Shown: piece by piece, positions 14,779 through 58,344 of the stretch
How the letters are laid out: every line of letters begins with the position of its first letter
Numbering within the stretch: position 1 is the stretch's first letter
Assembly: GCA_003202005.1 (NCBI GenBank)
Contig: QJJF01000001.1
Location: 93,099 to 157,098 of the forward strand
DNA length: 64,000 nucleotides
Source of the DNA: Williamsia faeni
Lineage (GTDB): Bacteria; Actinomycetota; Actinomycetes; Mycobacteriales; Mycobacteriaceae
Direction of reading: 5' to 3'
Made by a program: the position numbers and the translations under genes
The notes under the pieces: model-generated
Seen by the model: the letters and a program-made list of their open reading frames with translations, nothing else
Database searches by the model: none
Told to the model about the DNA's origin: nothing

Positions 14779-15840
14779 TTACCCGGCAACCAGCGACAGC
14801 GTGTCCAGATCCCGGATAGCAGTACATGACCGGGCGACCATCGCGGCGAACATCTCATCGCCGCGATCGGTACGAGTGCCATAGGCGCACCCGAAGACCG
14901 AGATCAGCGGGCCCTGGATCATCGAATACCGGTAGTCGTCCCAGCAGTCGTCGACGCCGTAGTTGTCGACGCCGTGGCCCGTCAGCGCGCGGTGGTAGTC
15001 GCCGACCAGACCGGCTTCATGATCACTTCGTACATCAGGCGACAGACTGGTTCCGATGAAATATGCGAGGTCTCGCGCAGGCAGCGCCAGACTCAGGGTT
15101 TGCCAATCGATCGCGGTGACACCCTGCGCACCGCCCGGCGGGAACAGCAGGTTGTCGAGCCGATAGTCGCCATGGACCAGCGCATATCGCTCCGATCTGC
15201 CCATCGCCCAATGCTCCGCCGCTTCAACACAATCGCGTAGCGTCGCCCGATCCTCAGAGCGGATCAACGGCCCGAGTGCGTCGATGAAGATCTCGGTCGC
15301 GGGCCCGTACATCTGCGCCAGCAACTCCGCGTCGTCGGGCCCGTTGACCGACAGTCCGTCGATGTCGAGCAGTGTGGGGTCACACCACCGCGGCCCGTGG
15401 AGGCCGGCGAGGTTGATCACGGAATCACGCGCCTGATCCACCGTGCACCCGGCAAGCTGATCACCCTGCTCGGATGGGCTCATGTCCTCGAGCAGCAGGG
15501 TGAAATCCGCGCCATTGTCGGAGATCGCCGCGTAATAGCACCGTGGGCTCTTGATCGCGACAGTCGCCGCGATTGTGTTGTAGTAGCGCGCCTCGGACCG
15601 GTACACCCCCGCCAACATCTCCCGGGTCGCCGGATCGGCCGCCGGCAATTTGGCCAGAATCCGCTCGGGCACAGCAGATCCGGTCAGCTCGAGCCGATAG
15701 CAGGTCCCGATCTGACCGGTACCGACCGGCGTGGCCGTCGCCGTGTCGACTGTCGTCCCGAGAGCGGTCGAGAGCCAGGATGCGGTGAGCTCGTCCGACG
15801 AGGTGACGATGGACCCGGCCGGAACATTCATTGGCAACAT
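14779..15840 (-). CDS. Aminoglycoside phosphotransferase-like kinase (APH / ecdysteroid-kinase fold)
   Basis: 353 residues from ATG 15840 (ATG 15831 is equally possible). Kinase features: the catalytic loop VHGDYRLDNLLF near 220-231 with Asp and Asn, then AIDWQ near 242-246 as the metal-binding DFG equivalent, and an N-terminal GTGQIGTCYRLEL as nucleotide loop. This subgroup, common in mycolata next to acyl-CoA dehydrogenases and LLM enzymes, probably phosphorylates small alcohols; antibiotic resistance should not be assumed. The open frame continues upstream through the minisatellite as AVERAQI heptads to 16110, but that overlaps the oxidoreductase gene and lacks conservation. Confidence 0.8.
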   Translation of the reverse strand: MLPMNVPAGSIVTSSDELTASWLSTALGTTVDTATATPVGTGQIGTCYRLELTGSAVPERILAKLPAADPATREMLAGVYRSEARYYNTIAATVAIKSPRCYYAAISDNGADFTLLLEDMSPSEQGDQLAGCTVDQARDSVINLAGLHGPRWCDPTLLDIDGLSVNGPDDAELLAQMYGPATEIFIDALGPLIRSEDRATLRDCVEAAEHWAMGRSERYALVHGDYRLDNLLFPPGGAQGVTAIDWQTLSLALPARDLAYFIGTSLSPDVRSDHEAGLVGDYHRALTGHGVDNYGVDDCWDDYRYSMIQGPLISVFGCAYGTRTDRGDEMFAAMVARSCTAIRDLDTLSLVAG

Positions 15841-15879: not shown

Positions 15880-15981
15880 GGCACGCTCGACGGCGATTTG
15901 GGCACGCTCGACGGCGATTTGGGCACGCTCGACGGCGATTTGGGCACGCTCGACGGCGATTTGGGCACGCTCGACGGCTTG
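15880..15981. repeat. 21-bp minisatellite array 1 (about 4.9 copies)
   Basis: Four identical 21-bp units and a shorter fifth, each opening with GGCACGCTCGACGGC on the plus strand. The array starts nine bases after the stop of the LLM gene (minus strand) and runs towards the start of the phosphotransferase gene. Read on the minus strand it encodes AVERAQI heptads, on the plus strand GTLDGDL. The same unit occurs in diverged form at 48300-48446 and 49367-49577. Confidence 0.9.
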
Positions 15982-15989
15982 GGCTTGGG

Positions 15990-16850
15990 CTAGACGGTGA
16001 CCGGGGTCAGGCCCAGCTTGCCCGCCAGCTTCGTCAGATAGGCGCCGGCCTTCTCGGCGTTGTCGTCGGGCACTCCGTACAGGACGGTGGTGACGCCGAG
16101 TTCGCGCCACTGGTCAAGCTTCTCCTGAACCGGTTTGAAGTCGAGTACCACGATCTGCGGCGCACCCTCGCGTCCGGCGTCAGCCCAGATCTGCTGCAGC
16201 AACCGGACCGAACCCTCGATGTCCTGCTCCCCCGGCGTGGTGATCCAGCCGTCGGCACTGCGGGCGATCCATTTGAAGTTCTTCTCGTTGCCCGACGCCC
16301 CGACCAGCACCGGTGGACCGGGCTGCTGAACAGTCTTGGGCCAGGCCCAGGACGGGCCGAAGTTCACGAACTCGCCGATGTACTCGGCTTCCTCCTGCGA
16401 CCACAGTGCCCGCATCGCCTCGATGTATTCGCGCAGCATCGTTCGACGCCTCTTCGGCGGAACATGGTGATCGCCGAGTTCGTCCAGGTTCCAACCGAAT
16501 CCGACGCCCAGGGTCACCCGGCCACCGGAGAGATGGTCCAGGGTGGCGATGCTCTTGGCGAGCGTCAACGGATCGGACTGCACCGGCAACGCCACCGCGG
16601 TACCGAGCCGGACCCGCGACGTCACCGCGGCCGCACCACTGAGCGACACCCAGGGGTCGAGTGTGCGCATATAGCGGTCGTCGGGCAGCGACGAGTCGCC
16701 CGTCTGCGGATGAGCGGCGTCGCGCCGGGTCGGGATGTGACTGTGCTCGGGGACGAAGTACGCGTCGAACCCGGCCTCCTCGATGAGCGGCGCGAGGACC
16801 GACGGAGCCAGCCCCCGATCGCTGGTGAACTGGACGATCCCGAAGTCCAT
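15990..16850 (-). CDS. LLM class F420-dependent oxidoreductase
   Basis: 286 residues from ATG 16850 (MDFGIVQFTSD), 6 bp after AAAGG. Luciferase-like TIM barrel with FVPEHSHIP, the long conserved VRLGTAVALPVQSDPLTLAKSIA-type block and GVGFGWNLDE, the LLM_F420 subclass signatures. Such enzymes transfer hydride to or from F420 (or use FMN) on hydrophobic substrates. A KstR-like operator lies 83 bp upstream, and M. tuberculosis has an F420-dependent LLM gene (Rv3520c) in its KstR regulon. Steroid metabolism is therefore a plausible context. The stop is followed directly by the 21-bp array. Confidence 0.9.
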   Translation of the reverse strand: MDFGIVQFTSDRGLAPSVLAPLIEEAGFDAYFVPEHSHIPTRRDAAHPQTGDSSLPDDRYMRTLDPWVSLSGAAAVTSRVRLGTAVALPVQSDPLTLAKSIATLDHLSGGRVTLGVGFGWNLDELGDHHVPPKRRRTMLREYIEAMRALWSQEEAEYIGEFVNFGPSWAWPKTVQQPGPPVLVGASGNEKNFKWIARSADGWITTPGEQDIEGSVRLLQQIWADAGREGAPQIVVLDFKPVQEKLDQWRELGVTTVLYGVPDDNAEKAGAYLTKLAGKLGLTPVTV

Positions 16851-16932
16851 GGTTGTAGCCTTTCGCGAAGAATCTGACCGACCGAAACAATGTGGACGAG
16901 TGCCTGGACACCAGTCCGACAAGTCTAAGAAA

Positions 16933-16946
16933 TATAACACGTTCTA
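16933..16946. promoter_or_regulatory. KstR-like operator before the F420 oxidoreductase
   Basis: TATAACACGTTCTA matches the KstR consensus TnnAACnnGTTnnA at every fixed base. It lies 83-96 bp upstream of the LLM gene start and includes an AT-rich stretch (AAATATAACA) able to serve as a -10 region. Confidence 0.65.
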
Positions 16947-45310: not shown

Positions 45311-47695
45311 ATGTCATTGGCCGATTACACCGACGCCGAGCTCGACCTAGACCTGCGCTGGTGGGACGCCGCCAATTACCTGACCGTCGCGCAAATTTAT
45401 TTGCAGGACAACGTGTTATTGCACGAACGGCTCAAGAACGAACACATCAAGCCGCGACTCCTGGGCCACTGGGGCACCAGTCCCGGACTGTCGATGATCT
45501 ATACCCTGATCAATCGCCGGATCCGCGAGACCGGGTCGAAGTGGCTCTACATCACCGGTCCCGGACACGGCGGCCCCGCGCTGGTGGCGTCAACCTATCT
45601 CGAGGGCACCTACAGCGAGATCTACCCACAGATCTCCTCCGACGCCGCCGGCGTGCGCGCGCTGTGCCGCCAGTTCTCCACCCCCGGCGGCATCCCCAGC
45701 CACGTCAGCGTGCAGACCCCCGGGTCGATCCATGAAGGCGGCGAACTCGGTTACGCGTTGATCCATGCCGCGGGCGCAGCGTTCGACAATCCCGAACTGG
45801 TAGTGGCCTGTGTGGTCGGCGACGGTGAGGCCGAGACCGGCCCGTTGTCCGGGTCGTGGAAGATTCCCGCCTTCCTGAATCCGGCACGCGACGGTGCGGT
45901 GCTTCCGATCCTCCATCTCAACGGCGCGAAGATCGCCAGCCCGACGGTGCTGGGCCGGACCAGCGATCGCGATATCGAGGCGTATCTGTCCGGACAGGGC
46001 TGGGCGCCGGTATTTGTCGAAGGGAGCGATCCCCGCGAGGTGTTCGCAGACCTCGCCCGGGCGATCGCCGATGCCCACGATGAGATCGCGAATATCCAGT
46101 CCGACGCTCGCACCGGCCGGCCCGGCGGCAACAAGTGGCCGGCCATCGTCCTGCGCACTCCCAAGGGATGGACCGGCCCGCACACGGTCGACGGCAAACT
46201 CATCGAGGGAACGCATTGGAGTCATCAGGTCCCCCTGTCGGGTGTGCGGGAAAACCCCGAACACCTTGCACTCCTTGAGGATTGGCTGCGTAAGTACCGT
46301 CCTGAGGACCTGTTCGACGCCGACGGAACCCTCGTGGGCGAACTCGCCGAGCTCGCACCCGCAGGTGATCTGAGGATGGGCGCGACACCGTACGCCAACG
46401 GTGGCCGCAACCTCGTGCCGCTACGGATCCCGCCGCTCGAATCGTATGCACTGCAGATCGATGCGCCCGGTGCCACGTCCTATGAGACGACCAAGGTGCT
46501 AGGCGAACTGATGCGGGACATCTACCGCGACAACTCCGACGCCGACCACGGCGGCAACTTCCGGCTGTTCTCTCCGGACGAGACGGCGTCGAACCGGCTG
46601 CAGGCCGTCTTCGAGGTGACCGACCGCTGCTGGCAGCTTCCGCGCACCGAGTTCGACGACGGGATCTCCCCCGAAGGACGGGTCATGGAGGTCCTCAGCG
46701 AACACCTGTGCCAGGGGTGGCTGGAGGGATATCTGCTGTCCGGACGTCACGGTCTGTTCGCCACCTATGAGGCGTTCGCGATGGTGAGCGTGTCGATGCT
46801 GGTGCAGCATGCCAAGTGGCTGCAGCACGCGGTCGATCTGCCGTGGCGGGAACCGGTTGCGTCGTTGAATGTGCTCTTGACCAGTACGTGCTGGCGCAAC
46901 GACCACAACGGGTTCAGCCACCAGGGCCCCGGCCTGATCGACGCCGTCATCCCGCTGTCACCCGAGGTGGTCCGGGTCTGGCTGCCACCGGATTCGAACA
47001 CGCTGCTCTCGGTCGCCGATCACTGCTTCCGCAGCCGCGACCACGTGAACGTCCTGGTCGTCGACAAACAGTCTCATCCGCAGTTCCTGACACTCGAGCA
47101 GGCCAACGAGCACTGCGCCGCCGGCGCATCGATCTGGGAATGGGCCGGCACAGAGCATCCCACCGCCGTCGGCGCCGAGGAAGAACCCGACATCGTGCTG
47201 GCCGCCGCCGGTGACGTACCCACAGAAGAGATCCTCGCCGCGGCCCACCTGCTGCGCGAATGGGTGCCGTGGCTGCGGGTCCGGATGGTGAATGTTGTTG
47301 ACCTGATGGTGCTTTTGCCACAGAACGACCATCCACACGGCCTGTCCGAACAGACCTTCATCGACCTGTTCACCGCCGATACCGATGTGGTCTTCGCGTT
47401 CCACGGCTACCCGCGGGCAATCCATCAACAGCTCCACGGTCGCACCAATCCCGACCGGTTCCATGTCCGCGGATTCAGCGAACAGGGCACCACCACAACA
47501 CCTTTTGACATGGTGGTGCTCAACAAAATGAGCCGCTACCACCTGGTACTCGAGGCGCTGCGCCGCACTCGGCGGGTACCCGAGAAGGCCGGAGACCTCG
47601 CGGAGTTCTGCGAGAACCAATTGCGACGGCACCACGACTACGTCCGCGAACACTTCGAAGATCTGCCCGAGATCCGCGAGTGGCACTGGTCGTGA
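45311..47695 (+). CDS. xfp: Xylulose-5-phosphate/fructose-6-phosphate phosphoketolase
   Basis: 794 residues, close to the usual length. The N-terminal domain has RLLGHWGTSPGLSMIY, ITGPGHGGPAL and the TPP-binding GDGEAETGPLSGSWK (about 169-183); the C-terminal domain has HAKWLQ, TCWRNDHNGFSHQGPG and a closing RHHDYVREHFEDLPEIREW. It splits xylulose 5-phosphate (and fructose 6-phosphate) with phosphate to acetyl phosphate, erythrose 4-phosphate or glyceraldehyde 3-phosphate, a route to acetyl units without CO2 loss. Its TGA overlaps the GTG of the next gene (GTGA). GAGAGGTGACC precedes the start. Confidence 0.95.
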   Translation: MSLADYTDAELDLDLRWWDAANYLTVAQIYLQDNVLLHERLKNEHIKPRLLGHWGTSPGLSMIYTLINRRIRETGSKWLYITGPGHGGPALVASTYLEGTYSEIYPQISSDAAGVRALCRQFSTPGGIPSHVSVQTPGSIHEGGELGYALIHAAGAAFDNPELVVACVVGDGEAETGPLSGSWKIPAFLNPARDGAVLPILHLNGAKIASPTVLGRTSDRDIEAYLSGQGWAPVFVEGSDPREVFADLARAIADAHDEIANIQSDARTGRPGGNKWPAIVLRTPKGWTGPHTVDGKLIEGTHWSHQVPLSGVRENPEHLALLEDWLRKYRPEDLFDADGTLVGELAELAPAGDLRMGATPYANGGRNLVPLRIPPLESYALQIDAPGATSYETTKVLGELMRDIYRDNSDADHGGNFRLFSPDETASNRLQAVFEVTDRCWQLPRTEFDDGISPEGRVMEVLSEHLCQGWLEGYLLSGRHGLFATYEAFAMVSVSMLVQHAKWLQHAVDLPWREPVASLNVLLTSTCWRNDHNGFSHQGPGLIDAVIPLSPEVVRVWLPPDSNTLLSVADHCFRSRDHVNVLVVDKQSHPQFLTLEQANEHCAAGASIWEWAGTEHPTAVGAEEEPDIVLAAAGDVPTEEILAAAHLLREWVPWLRVRMVNVVDLMVLLPQNDHPHGLSEQTFIDLFTADTDVVFAFHGYPRAIHQQLHGRTNPDRFHVRGFSEQGTTTTPFDMVVLNKMSRYHLVLEALRRTRRVPEKAGDLAEFCENQLRRHHDYVREHFEDLPEIREWHWS

Positions 47696-48309
47696 CTTCG
47701 CTCGATGGAGCGGTCCGCATCGTCCTGGCGCTCATCGCTCGCCCGCGGCGTGGCCATCGGATCACGTGGGGTGCGACCGCCGACGAGATCGCGGCCTCGT
47801 TTCCTGGCGATGACCTTGTACCGCAACCGAGGTGGGGCTACACCCACGCAGTCGACGTCGCCGCACCTCCCGAGAAGGTATGGCCCTGGTTGGTGCAGAT
47901 CGGACAGGGCCGCGGCGGCTTCTACAGCTACCAGGGCCTGGAGAATCTCGTCGGCTGCCAGATCCAGAACACATCGGCGATCCTGCCGGAGTTTGGATCG
48001 CTGGCTGTGGGTGACGAGGTGAAGCTTCACGTCAAGGCTCCGGGTCTTCGCGTGGAAGTGGCCGAGCCGAACAAGTCGTTGGTCCTGTTCGGAGGTTCGG
48101 ATGATTCACCCGAAGCTTCGCTGTGGGCCTTTCACATCGTCGATGCCGGCGACGGCCACAGCCGGCTGATCGAACGCGGACGCTATTCATACGGCAGTAC
48201 TTTCGGCAACCGACTGGCGTTCTCACCGACATTCCTCGAACCGATTTCCTTCGTGATGAGCCGGAAGATGTTGCTGACCATCGCCGCTCTCGCCGAGCAG
48301 CCCCGTTGA
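47692..48309 (+). CDS. SRPBCC-type ligand-binding protein
   Basis: 205 residues from GTG 47692, overlapping the phosphoketolase stop as GTGA; GTG 47680 is an alternative. The START-like fold is recognised from HAVDVAAPPEKVWPWLVQIGQGRGGFYSYQGLENLVGC, then LAVGDEVKLH and a C-terminal amphipathic helix (MSRKMLLTIAALA). Such proteins bind hydrophobic ligands in a deep pocket. Its tight coupling with phosphoketolase is unexplained. The last codons and the TGA at 48307 lie inside the first unit of minisatellite array 2. Confidence 0.8.
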   Translation: MTSLDGAVRIVLALIARPRRGHRITWGATADEIAASFPGDDLVPQPRWGYTHAVDVAAPPEKVWPWLVQIGQGRGGFYSYQGLENLVGCQIQNTSAILPEFGSLAVGDEVKLHVKAPGLRVEVAEPNKSLVLFGGSDDSPEASLWAFHIVDAGDGHSRLIERGRYSYGSTFGNRLAFSPTFLEPISFVMSRKMLLTIAALAEQPR

Positions 48310-48446
48310 CCGGGCCCAACGCACCGCCGAGCGTGCCCCGTTGACCGTGCCGAACGGACCGCCGAGCGTGCCCATCGAACCGCCCAGCGTGCCCCGTTGA
48401 CCGTGCCGAACGGACCGCCGAGCGTGCCGCAATCGCCGTTGAGAGT
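48300..48446. repeat. 21-bp minisatellite array 2 (diverged, with 14-bp half units)
   Basis: Three 35-bp units (14+21 bp) at 48300-48334, 48335-48369 and 48391-48425, separated or followed by 21-bp units at 48370-48390 and 48426-48446. Each ends in AGCGT and starts with GCC. The codon pattern GCC-xxx-xxx-(G/A)CC-G(T/C)C-GAG-CGT is the complement of the array 1 and 3 unit. The array starts within the last codons of the SRPBCC gene. Confidence 0.85.
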
Positions 48447-48523
48447 GCCGACAATTCCGGCGACCGCGAACCCGTCGGCGCGGCGGTTGGTTGTTGTCCA
48501 CGATGTAGGGCATCCTTGATCAG

Positions 48524-48879: not shown

Positions 48880-49365
48880 GTGAGTCGAACACTGATCTTG
48901 ATGCGGCACGGCAAGTCCGGATACCCCGACGGTGTCGTCGACCATCAACGACCGCTGGCCGAACGCGGCCGCCGCGAAGCCGCTCTGGCGGGTCGATGGA
49001 TGAGTGATGCCGGATTCACCGTGGACGCAGTACTGTGCTCCACCGCTACCCGCACCCGACAAACGTTGCAACGCACGGGCATCGACGCGCCGACGACCTA
49101 CGTCGACGACATCTACGGCGGCGACCCCGACGACGTCCTCGAGGCCATCCGTCTCCACGCCCCCTCCGACGCGGCGACGATCCTGGTTGTCGGGCACGAA
49201 CCCGGTATGCCCGCGACCGCACTCACACTGGATCCTGATGCACAAATCCCGCGGTTCCCGACTTCGGCATATGCGGTCCTGCAGATCGGGTCATCGTGGG
49301 CCGAGATCGGACTGACGCCCGATCCCGGCAACCGGATGATCCAGATGTCGATACCGAGGGAATGA
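48880..49365 (+). CDS. SixA-type phosphohistidine phosphatase
   Basis: 161 residues from GTG 48880. The histidine phosphatase core is LILMRHGKSGYPD (nucleophile His10), the Arg of STATRTRQT near 58-66 and the second catalytic His in VVGHEPGMP near 106-114. The short length fits SixA, which removes phosphate from histidine in phosphotransfer domains. Its TGA is followed after a single base by minisatellite array 3. It converges on the AidB-like dehydrogenase. Confidence 0.88.
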   Translation: MSRTLILMRHGKSGYPDGVVDHQRPLAERGRREAALAGRWMSDAGFTVDAVLCSTATRTRQTLQRTGIDAPTTYVDDIYGGDPDDVLEAIRLHAPSDAATILVVGHEPGMPATALTLDPDAQIPRFPTSAYAVLQIGSSWAEIGLTPDPGNRMIQMSIPRE

Positions 49366-49366
49366 C

Positions 49367-49577
49367 GGCACGCTCAACGGTTCCATGGGCACGCTCGGCG
49401 GTTTTATGGGCACGCTCAACTGCTCGATGAGCACGCTCAACGGCTCGATGGGCACGGTCGGCGGTTTTATGGGCACGCTCGACGGCTCGATGAGCACGCT
49501 CGACGGTCCCATGGGCACGCTCGGCGGTTTTATGGGCACGCTCGGCGGCTCGATGGGCACGCTCGACGGCTCGGCGG
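49367..49577. repeat. 21-bp minisatellite array 3 (10 copies)
   Basis: Ten contiguous 21-bp units, each beginning (G/A)GCACGCTC and, in units 1-9, ending ATG, fill the entire space from one base after the SixA stop (49363-49365) to the AidB-like stop (49578-49580). Variants alternate between TTTTATG and CTCGATG endings, so larger multi-unit duplications are visible. On the plus strand it reads MGTLxG(S/F/P) heptads, on the minus strand AH(R/K/G)(A/T)(V/A)ER heptads, both without stops. Confidence 0.92.
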
Positions 49578-51200
49578 CTACTTGACCAGGGCTCGCTCCA
49601 GGATCGGCGCGAGGTCGAGTCCGGCGGGCAGGGTTCCGTAGGCTCCGGCCCAGTCTCCACCCAGACGCGTGGCGGCGAATGCTTCCGCGACGGCCGGGTG
49701 ACCGTGCCGCAACATCAATGATCCTTGCAGCGCAATACAAATCGATTCGGCGATTCGACGGGCACCGGCTTCTCCCACGGTGGACAGTTGATTCTTCAGC
49801 CCGGTCAGGTGTCGGTCGTAGCGGTCGTCGAGCCCGGTGGCACGGTCGAGTTCGTCGAACAGGGCGTCCACCGACTTCGGTGCGGTCGCCATGGCGCGCA
49901 GGGTGTCAAGCGCACTGACGTTGCCGCTACCCTCCCAAATCCCGTACAACGGTGCCTCCCGGTAGAGCCGCGGCATTCCCGAATCCTCGACATAACCGTT
50001 GCCGCCGAGGCATTCCATCGACTCCGCTACATGCGCGGTCGCGCGCTTACACAGCCAGTACTTGGTGGCGGGCAGGCCGATCCGCCGCAGCAATGTCTCG
50101 GTGTCGTCGCCGCGTTCGGCAGCGTCGGTGGCACCGGCCATCCGCATCGACACCATCGTCGCGGCCTCGGACTCGATCGCGAGATCGGCGAGCACACTGC
50201 GCATGAGTGGCTGGTCGATCAGATACTCGCCGAATACCTTTCGATACTGCGCGTGATGCATCGCCTGGGTCAGTCCGTGCCGCATGTTCCCGGCGCTGGC
50301 CAGTGCGCAGTCAAGCCGGGTCAGGTTGACCATCTCGATGATGGTGCGCACGCCGCGACCCTCGTCCCCGACGAGCCACGCGGTGGCGCCGTCGTACTCG
50401 ACCTCCGACGACGCGTTGGCGTGGTTGCCCAGTTTGGTCTTCAAGCGTTGCAGACGCATCCGGTTACGGGTGCCGTCGGGCAATACTCGCGGCAGGAAGA
50501 AACACGACAACCCACCGGGCGCCTGCGCGAGTACCAGGAACAGATCTGACATCGGCGCGGACGTGAACCACTTGTGCCCGGTCAGGGTGTAGCTGCCGTC
50601 CGCATTCAGCGCAGCTGTGGTCTGATTGGCCCGGACATCCGAGCCACCCTGCTTTTCCGTCATCGACATCCCGGCGATCAGACCGGCCTTGCCCGACGGC
50701 ACCGACGAAAACGTCGGGTCGTAGACACGCGAACTCAGCAACGGCTCATAGATCGCGGCCAGCTCAGGATTGTGACGCAGCGCGGGAACCACGGCGTAGG
50801 TCATCGAAATCGGGCAGACGTGACCGGCCTCGACGTTCCAGACCCCGAGTTTGGCGGCCCGCACGACGTGGGAACCGGCCCGGGCATCAGCCCACGGCGC
50901 ACCATGCAGTCCGTGCCCGACCGCCACCTCCATCAGCTGGTGGTAGGCGGGGTCGTATTCAACCTCATCGATGCGGTGTCCGTATCGATCATGGGTCCTC
51001 AGCACCGGTTCATTGCGATCCGCCAACTCACCCCAACGTTGCGCCTGCGCCGTTGCGGCGATCGCACCGAGCGCCGCGACCTCGTCCGCACCCCATCCTC
51101 CGCCCTCGCGAACAAGGGCCTCCGACAGCGCCGGACTGGTGGCCGGGTTGTATCCGACCAGCGGTGGAACCTGATTGATCACTTCATGTGTATCGACCAT
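49578..51200 (-). CDS. AidB-like acyl-CoA dehydrogenase
   Basis: 540 residues from ATG 51200 (MVDTHEVINQVPPLVGYN). It is longer than ordinary acyl-CoA dehydrogenases (about 390) and has the AidB opening PPLVGYNPA, then GMSMTEKQGGSDVRANQTTA and CLGGNGYVEDSGMPRLYREAPLYGIWEGSGNV. In E. coli AidB is part of the adaptive response to alkylation and binds DNA; here no ada or alkylation genes are near, and no LexA box was found. The TAG stop is immediately followed by array 3. Confidence 0.88.
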   Translation of the reverse strand: MVDTHEVINQVPPLVGYNPATSPALSEALVREGGGWGADEVAALGAIAATAQAQRWGELADRNEPVLRTHDRYGHRIDEVEYDPAYHQLMEVAVGHGLHGAPWADARAGSHVVRAAKLGVWNVEAGHVCPISMTYAVVPALRHNPELAAIYEPLLSSRVYDPTFSSVPSGKAGLIAGMSMTEKQGGSDVRANQTTAALNADGSYTLTGHKWFTSAPMSDLFLVLAQAPGGLSCFFLPRVLPDGTRNRMRLQRLKTKLGNHANASSEVEYDGATAWLVGDEGRGVRTIIEMVNLTRLDCALASAGNMRHGLTQAMHHAQYRKVFGEYLIDQPLMRSVLADLAIESEAATMVSMRMAGATDAAERGDDTETLLRRIGLPATKYWLCKRATAHVAESMECLGGNGYVEDSGMPRLYREAPLYGIWEGSGNVSALDTLRAMATAPKSVDALFDELDRATGLDDRYDRHLTGLKNQLSTVGEAGARRIAESICIALQGSLMLRHGHPAVAEAFAATRLGGDWAGAYGTLPAGLDLAPILERALVK

Positions 51201-57524: not shown

Positions 57525-57594
57525 ATGACCGAGACGAAGCGCAGCGGAGCTCGACCCAGATGACCGAGACGAAGCGCAGCGGAGCTCGACGCTG
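57525..57594 (+). repeat. Two 35-bp direct repeats immediately before the IclR start
   Basis: Copies at 57525-57559 and 57560-57594 both begin ATGACCGAGACGAAGC and share 31 identical bases, ending in CCAG or GCTG. The true start, ATGACCGGGACGGAGC at 57595, is a third partial copy. The 5' end of the gene thus appears duplicated. The core GACGAAGCGCAGCGGAGCTC recurs at 60341. Confidence 0.8.
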
Positions 57595-58344
57595 ATGACC
57601 GGGACGGAGCAAACCGGGCGAACCGGCTCGCAATCAGTCGAGCGGGCGATCGCGGTGCTGTACGCAATGGAAGGCGAAGACCACTCGCTCTCGATCAGCG
57701 AACTCGCGGGGCGGGCCGCGTTGCCGGTGAGCACGACACATCGCATCGCCCAGGCGCTCGTCCGCGGCCGGCTGCTGGCGCGAGAAGGTGCGAGTTCATA
57801 CCGGATCGGAGACGGGATCACCGCGTTGGCGCAAACGGCCGCGCGTCAGATCAATATCGAAGCCGCTGCCCCTCACCTGCACGGATTGTCGTCCGGCATC
57901 CGGATCACCGCGAGTCTCGGGGTGATCGAACACAGCGAGGCAGTCACGCTCTACTCCGCGCGCCCGCCGTCGATGTTCTGTGGCCACCAACTGCCGACCC
58001 GCCGGGCCAAGCTCGAGGACAGCGCGATGGGTCAGGCGATCGTCGCCTTCGGCCAGCGCCGGGACCGGCGTATCTCGGCGCTTCCCGACGTCCAGGCAGC
58101 ACGTCGACGCGGCTACTCCGTTTCCACCGCCGACGGCGTCACGGCAATCGCGGTCCCGGTGTTCGACAGTGACGGTCAGGTCCGGGCATCGATCGGCGTC
58201 CAGGCCCGCAGTGTCCGGCTCAACCCACAACTGATCAACCAGATCCACCCGGCGATGCGGCAGACCGCAGAGTTGCTGCGCGGTGTGGTGGCAGAAGGCC
58301 AGGTGCGCACCAACATCGATCAACTTATACGCGCCACGATTTAA
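57595..58344 (+). CDS. IclR family regulator of the organosulfur locus
   Basis: 249 residues from ATG 57595. Winged HTH SQSVERAIAVLYAMEGEDHSLSISELAGRAALPVSTTHRIAQAL at about 12-56 and a C-terminal effector domain with AMGQAIVAF and GVTAIAVPVFDSDGQVRASIGV. It sits between two divergent operons for sulfur-compound uptake and oxidation. Near-identical motifs before both arms (57409 and 58357) make it their probable regulator. Whether it represses or activates, and its effector, cannot be seen. Confidence 0.88.
   Translation: MTGTEQTGRTGSQSVERAIAVLYAMEGEDHSLSISELAGRAALPVSTTHRIAQALVRGRLLAREGASSYRIGDGITALAQTAARQINIEAAAPHLHGLSSGIRITASLGVIEHSEAVTLYSARPPSMFCGHQLPTRRAKLEDSAMGQAIVAFGQRRDRRISALPDVQAARRRGYSVSTADGVTAIAVPVFDSDGQVRASIGVQARSVRLNPQLINQIHPAMRQTAELLRGVVAEGQVRTNIDQLIRATI

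Follow-up and report, generated by a model that had tools for sequence, protein, structure and literature searches.

The nearest worked-out analogue of the repeat described here is the gyrase-binding BIME-2 of E. coli (PMC3733652; PMC2817692). BIME and REP sequences are present, like this family, in hundreds of short copies outside genes, most of them between convergent or co-directional neighbours, and form inverted pairs and clusters; roles on DNA, involving gyrase, IHF and Pol I, as well as roles on RNA have been discussed for them (PMC3733652; PMC2817692). REPs tagged with CGTC, a motif also contained in many of the cores analyzed below, occur without a dedicated transposase too, and consist of stem-loops of 8–9 bp with loops mostly of 4–5 nt and a CCA-like tail (PMC3733652). 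Gordonia, Mycobacterium, Rhodococcus and actinobacteria are not mentioned in the main text of that paper. The DNA uptake sequences of Neisseria and Pasteurellaceae are likewise short dispersed motifs, of ~9–11 nt and generally with 1000 or more copies per genome, whose close inverted pairs are enriched in the tail-to-tail arrangement (PMC1852404).

The present family was detected in a window, a stretch of 64,000 nucleotides that belongs to contig C1 (1,283,588 bases) of the Williamsia faeni draft genome (5.52 Mb, 44 contigs). Its unit, derived from 339 units of W. faeni, combines a 14-bp core, which reads CCGYCGASCGKGCC in sense, with a 7-bp spacer that is mostly A/T-rich, and the fuller form of the family can be written as (CCGYCGASCGKGCC-N7)n, a short centre and then the same inverted. 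Unlike the BIMEs, in which units alternate, each arm keeps one orientation, and the 21-bp direct repeats are built on a non-palindromic core instead of an imperfect palindrome of 20–40 bp, strong pairing arising only between facing arms. Position 4 of the core is T in 54% of the units, and in part of them CGTC is found inside the core, without an adjoining stem, and not as a tag outside one. Neither the GTAG tag nor the RAYT-type gene of the GTAG-REPs was found; the RAYT (Y1) family PF01797 was detected in 0 of nine genomes of the genus, and the control was found in 5 of 14. The extragenic position of the C1 arrays between convergent or co-directional genes agrees with REP and BIME sequences. 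Membership in this group is not claimed, because the palindromic unit, the tag and the RAYT were all looked for and not found. The stem-loop form of the CGTC-REPs differs from the single arms of this family, which fold like shuffled sequences, and the close pairs of the DNA uptake sequences differ from its tandem arrays of 21-bp units, in which separations are often long. MIRU and other mycobacterial VNTRs are, as here, intergenic tandem repeats of variable number in a related group, but the MIRU units are longer than the 21-bp unit, and we know of no inverted two-arm arrays of MIRU. A search of open-access titles and abstract openings yielded no description of this repeat.

Array 1 of the window (15880..15977, minus strand) comprises five 14-bp cores starting at 15880, 15901, 15922, 15943 and 15964, with exact 21-bp spacing. 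Tandem Repeats Finder assigned 4.7 copies of the 21-bp unit with 100% matches to the interval 15880–15978, in agreement with the near-identical units described in an earlier note, in which the interval ended at 15981. Read on the minus strand, the unit is CCGTCGAGCGTGCC-CAAATCG. The array lies past the end of a gene for a luciferase-like (LLM) monooxygenase (15990..16940, minus strand; PF00296, E 1.7e-47) with the stop codon TAG at 15990–15992. A C-rich leader (15978..15989, minus strand), with the letters CCCAAGCCCAAG on that strand, extends from the stop codon to the first unit, and the first full unit is located 12 bases beyond the stop codon and not nine as originally given. Downstream of the array is a phosphotransferase-like gene (14779..15831, minus strand; PF02958 and PF01636). 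Open reading frames cross array 1 on both strands, and the suspicion that it generates bogus gene models was justified: a 443-aa phosphotransferase reading frame extends through the array to 16110, and since the codon-bias gene caller has this gene begin outside the array, at 15831, the longer reading is probably spurious. A coding role of the open seven-codon frame was also considered and rejected, as the spacer positions did not look codon-like by eye and a stop codon lies inside a unit of array 2.

The two further arrays expected at 48.3 and 49.4 kb were both recovered. Array 2 (48303..48449, plus strand) contains eight units with spacings of 21 and 14 bp, in the sense of the upstream plus-strand gene (47680..48309, codon-bias gene calling), whose TGA (48307–48309) falls inside the first unit; no Pfam match was obtained for this gene at E 0.001. 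Array 3 (49367..49569, minus strand), with ten units at 21 bp, is located between convergent genes, beside the end of a plus-strand gene of the histidine phosphatase family (48901..49365; PF00300), and runs in sense with the minus-strand gene to its right. All three arrays are single-arm. The 15-mer GGGCACGCTCGRCGG, allowing up to 3 mismatches, gave 34 matches within the window against 18.1 expected, a number reached in 0 of 100 shuffles. An Rfam 15 scan of the window returned 0 matches at the gathering score. The window also includes, at 57525–57610, a tandem repeat of 35 bp with 2.5 copies, whose consensus is unrelated to the 21-bp family.

The idea of a dispersed 21-bp family was supported by a genome-wide search, in which many further copies were found, mostly at gene ends. 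The core GGCACGCTCRRCGG, with at most one mismatch, matched 592 times in the genome and its reversed control pattern 23 times; the 15-mer matched 106 times (control, 1), compared with 0 to 8 times in the other eight genomes of the genus, and the pair pattern GGCMCGSTCRRCGG-N7-GGCMCGSTCRRCGG 251 times (control, 0). When contig C1 was read whole, 27 clusters of at least two units were obtained, and likewise 27 by a second clustering rule; extrapolated to 5.52 Mb, this count corresponds to about 115 arrays. Lone core matches in C1 numbered just 20, and 19 of them were inside called genes. Seven contigs of the draft genome (C1, C3, C4, C5, C7, C13 and C21) begin or end within ~450 bases of a unit, and the repeat may break the assembly there.

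The location of the arrays just past stop codons was also supported, as 25 of the 27 C1 arrays lie in regions adjoining a called gene end. According to the codon-bias gene caller, 13 were between convergent genes, 12 between co-directional genes, one between divergent genes and one at the contig edge, in a count from which ORFs consisting of more than 20% array were dropped first; otherwise, four arrays overlapped short ORF calls. Divergent regions made up 151 of the 421 C1 intergenic regions of at least 100 bp, compared with one of the 26 classified arrays (Fisher p 4e-4), and 190 of 918 when all C1 intergenic regions were considered (p 0.043). A similar distribution was observed in 144 Williamsia arrays, 63 from W. 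faeni and 81 from other Williamsia, with identical arrays counted once: 77 were convergent, 50 co-directional, five divergent and 12 at an edge, although many of these loci were chosen because of repeat matches and some of the 81 are orthologous between close species. The median distance from the stop codon to the first unit was 17 bp (n=55), a short distance that is unsurprising where convergent regions are short. In Gordonia araii, 4 of 29 arrays were inside called genes. By eye, the last codons of the orthologous gene near C1:337170 enter the array, with the stop codon inside it, in two arrays of W. muralis and of the same-genus genome G008 (L128 and L144), and W. faeni lacks an array at this place. 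In two places, C1:499100–499400 and C11:776965–777090 of W. soli, an unrelated inverted repeat was seen by eye past the same gene that is followed by an array in a relative.

The earlier note had also proposed that the arrays run in the sense direction of the gene whose stop codon they follow. Between convergent genes (77 of the 144 arrays) this rule is trivial, since either orientation is the sense of one neighbour. Between co-directional genes it held for the single arms of Williamsia, with 26 in sense and two in antisense; for W. faeni alone the ratio was 6 to 1 (p 0.125), and in G. araii, with four sense and three antisense single arms, no orientation bias was observed.

Reading of the Williamsia loci modified the picture of a simple tandem minisatellite: the repeat is real, and each array of the window represents a single arm in a dispersed family of gene-end repeat elements, whose fuller form has two inverted arms and a related centre. 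Two arms are not required for an array, because single-arm arrays exist, including the three in the window. Two-arm arrays accounted for 16 of the 27 C1 arrays by one rule and for 15 by the rule used for folding, and the arm order was -+ in 68 of the 74 two-arm arrays read in Williamsia. In W. faeni, 22 of 34 arm junctions measured exactly 40 bp from start to start. The 22 resulting centres of 26 bp, taken in both orientations, agreed with their consensus at a mean of 18.3 of 26 positions, compared with 10.5 (maximum 11.1) for shuffled centres, a null that is somewhat generous because the A-rich and T-rich ends are lost on shuffling and because the observed value is the best of 22 starts and the shuffled values the best of six. 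The centres at C1:567k and C2:205k were identical at 25 of 26 positions, as were those at C1:76k and C4:119k. Alignments of up to 345 bp at 75% and 122 bp at 91% were obtained by blastn between element loci; arrays of one consensus align anyway, and therefore the near-identical centres are better evidence of copying than these alignments. No arm-to-arm likeness was detected inside a locus, where spacers were 0.39 identical, against 0.46 between loci (permutation p 0.998).

The distances between arms appeared to follow the helical repeat of DNA. In other Williamsia including W. sterculiae, 35 junctions (19, 30, 38, 40, 50, 51, 60, 61, 70–72, 81, 82, 92, 93, 103, 107, 112, 113 and 134 bp) gave a Rayleigh R of 0.88 at 10.5 bp, and of 0.09 at 9.5, 0.30 at 11.5 and 0.27 at 21, in a scan of periods without correction; this statistic overstates independence, given that the 35 junctions include orthologous loci. 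The 50 junctions of W. faeni, with one clear outlier (64), gave an R of 0.92 at 10.5 bp, but they hardly separate periods, 31 of them being at 40 bp (R 0.84 at 9.5 and 0.86 at 11.5). After clustering by centre likeness with a looser cut, phasing was retained in the other Williamsia (n=20, p 1e-6) and in W. faeni (n=12, p 1e-4). Long separations hold decayed units, so their 21-bp steps are not independent, and most junctions reduce to two base classes of ~30 and ~40 bp; the chance of two random classes lying half a period apart is estimated at about 0.14. Two weaker measures agreed with the phasing, namely the distances from one element to the next (n=8, p 0.035, one clear outlier) and the outer junctions (n=14, p 0.02). 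The same-strand spacings of W. faeni other than 21 were unphased (n=16, R 0.22). The A/T periodicity at 10.5 bp within units was weak, shuffles being as high in 55 to 1106 of 5000 depending on the species, and a bend periodicity was rejected on this ground.

The gene-end position, the conserved site in each unit and the helical register are the reasons for reading these arrays as sites of a DNA-binding protein. Each core would be a putative site for a protein on duplex DNA, and all sites would face the same side of the helix, 21 bp being two turns and the arm distances advancing in steps of 10.5 bp. By analogy, the loaded array would act at transcription ends, its effect most likely concerning DNA topology or the insulation of transcription. 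For M. tuberculosis, enrichment of gyrase has been described both between convergent genes and downstream of termination sites (PMC5433769).

Another possibility is that the element acts in the transcript, where facing arms would form a hairpin ending transcription or protecting the mRNA end and the C-rich, G-poor sense RNA of single arms would recruit Rho. The 15 two-arm C1 arrays folded far better than shuffles (mean z -8.0, taking the lower z of both strands), as expected for such a hairpin, while the 12 single-arm arrays folded like shuffles (mean z +0.25). Compensatory changes, by which an intrinsic terminator hairpin would be kept, were not found in 21 distinct elements: 81.0% of the cells were paired against 82.2% in shuffles, the covariation score was 0.134 against 0.151, with a covariation term of -0.05, and the pair 8-47 was unpaired in 12 of the 21, in a test where an invariant pair is no evidence either way. 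The RNA after the stop codon was C-rich and G-poor, as in Rho-dependent (rut) sites, with 52.5% C and 18.6% G in the stop-to-array gaps of 5–60 nt (n=24) and 39.4% C and 29.1% G in the units (n=200). The first 20 nt after array-free stop codons of C1 contained 35.7% C and 26.8% G (n=439), perhaps a Rho-related trend. The composition of the gaps compared with these stop codons and the 26:2 sense bias of Williamsia argue for an RNA element; on the other hand, a hairpin loop does not need steps of 10.5 bp, and some arrays lie, by eye, past a terminator-like hairpin. Taken together, an RNA-level 3' element is considered unlikely.

Few array loci were shared with more distant species. Eleven of the 27 C1 arrays could be mapped to the part of the W. 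soli contig read, two of them falling in one place, and one had an array there; ten mapped to the part of the G008 contig and two had an array. The empty sites in G008 measured 7 and 17 bp, and at the array-free site of W. soli at 567k two short pieces resembling the core face each other instead, perhaps as an initial or a decayed form. By contrast with these more distant species, array presence was shared at 12 of 12 loci between W. muralis (15 arrays, 12 mappable) and G008, with flanks 90–98% identical, although this sharing is biased, as most of the G008 sequence was selected for arrays and only 3 of the 12 lie in the unselected contig part. Their array lengths were ~one to three units apart at 7 of the 12 loci and within 1 bp at the other five, and the differences in unit number come in steps of ~21 bp. 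Each species shows its own unit consensus. Past the same gene as array 1, two other Williamsia genomes have arrays of nine and six units of different sequence; at this locus the unit ends in CGTGCC in W. faeni and, with one exception, in CGGGCC in G008 and W. muralis, matching the majority of each genome (T in 85%, G in 69% and G in 59%, respectively). Hence the assumption of a young array may hold for the units of array 1 and fails for the locus, where two other Williamsia also have arrays.

The rarely shared loci of the more distant species, the varying unit number in close ones, the species-specific consensus and the patchy distribution of the family are what would be expected of a selfish or neutral minisatellite, copied into the least harmful places and surviving there without a cellular function. 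Such a history by itself leaves unexplained the 26:2 sense bias and the phased distances, and also a conserved 14-bp core beside a variable spacer, and it is regarded as somewhat unlikely. A role in RNA would be compatible with a purely selfish history.

A non-autonomous, MITE-like transposable element, with ends in helical register for a trans-acting transposase and arrays as by-products, would account for the inverted two-arm structure, the related centre in both orientations, the near-identical centres at distant loci, the empty sites and the phased distances. However, no target-site duplication was noticed in the pairs compared by eye, the Y1 RAYT family, the sole transposase family searched, was found in none of the nine genomes, and no transposase was recognized by eye among the ORFs at three sites with a gene between opposite arms, which makes this origin distinctly improbable. 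The arms as ends of a gene-carrying transposon were rejected, as these three cases show ordinary-looking ORFs by eye.

Across the genus, the pair pattern was present in eight of the nine genomes, with 1 to 74 matches in the seven other than W. faeni, and across the family in 12 of 401 genomes and 4 of 31 genera. Beyond the genus, one genome, probably that of G. araii to judge from the many stretches of this species among named records, had 101 matches and three had 1 to 3. A scan of named records with the same pattern gave at least 91 stretches, from Williamsia (together with a mislabelled Kitasatospora record), G. araii and others; among the matches listed, 18 stretches belong to other taxa, and 17 of these, with 2 to 4 units, look like chance or coding repeats. 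A covariance model of the centre (E 0.001) matched in 16 of 61 family genomes and 11 of 31 genera, many genomes having just one or two weak matches. Clearer matches beyond the genus set were obtained in G025 (10) and G074 (9), both of one genus, and in G023, W. sterculiae (5), and the sequences of all three display the two-arm design. The unit of G025, from another genus, is 22 bp long, and that of G074, from the same genus as G025, 21 bp.

The record named Kitasatospora arboriphila NRRL B-24581 had suggested a transfer to the Streptomycetes, which was rejected because the record is a Williamsia. The best-scoring piece of its 16S region was 97.9% identical to a partial W. muralis sequence, against 83% for Kitasatospora sp. 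A2-31; the W. faeni draft itself gave no 16S match. The Kitasatospora record and G008 have contigs with lengths of 800383 and 728022 bases in common, and the array stretch L157 of this record is 100% identical in G008. The assembly so labelled (5.7 Mb; NZ_JNYV records) is thus a Williamsia by 16S region and contig identity. Mobile carriers of the repeat were likewise rejected: among viral contigs the pair pattern matched one contig, with a different-looking repeat, and no match of window positions 49300–49640 to plasmids and phages was found by blastn.

The explanation favored here, at somewhat less than even confidence, is that these are BIME-like arrays of putative binding sites on DNA at transcription ends, serving topology or insulation. 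The gene-end position, the related centres, the phasing, the near-identical centres at distant loci and the empty sites count for it; the non-independence of the phases, the unphased same-strand spacings, the 22-bp unit of G025, the weak A/T periodicity, the single-arm arrays and the absent orientation bias in G. araii count against it. The family would have spread by copying of the two-arm element, and local gain, loss and turnover of units after copying would have led to the species-specific consensus. A stronger version, which we consider doubtful, is that of a new class of gene-end DNA elements, in which mirror-image arrays of 14-bp sites, in register over ~2 to 13 turns, would load a putative protein where transcription units have their 3' boundaries, for the most part between convergent genes, and would spread and homogenise via a non-RAYT route.

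In practice, several contig ends carry arrays, and the arrays give rise to false ORFs on either strand. For the Actinobacteria, the family would represent a gene-end repeat system with a simple code, consisting of a 14-bp site, a 21-bp step and a 10.5-bp register. Should there be a binding protein, phased arrays between convergent genes would allow transcription ends to be linked with supercoiling and with the evolution of repeats.
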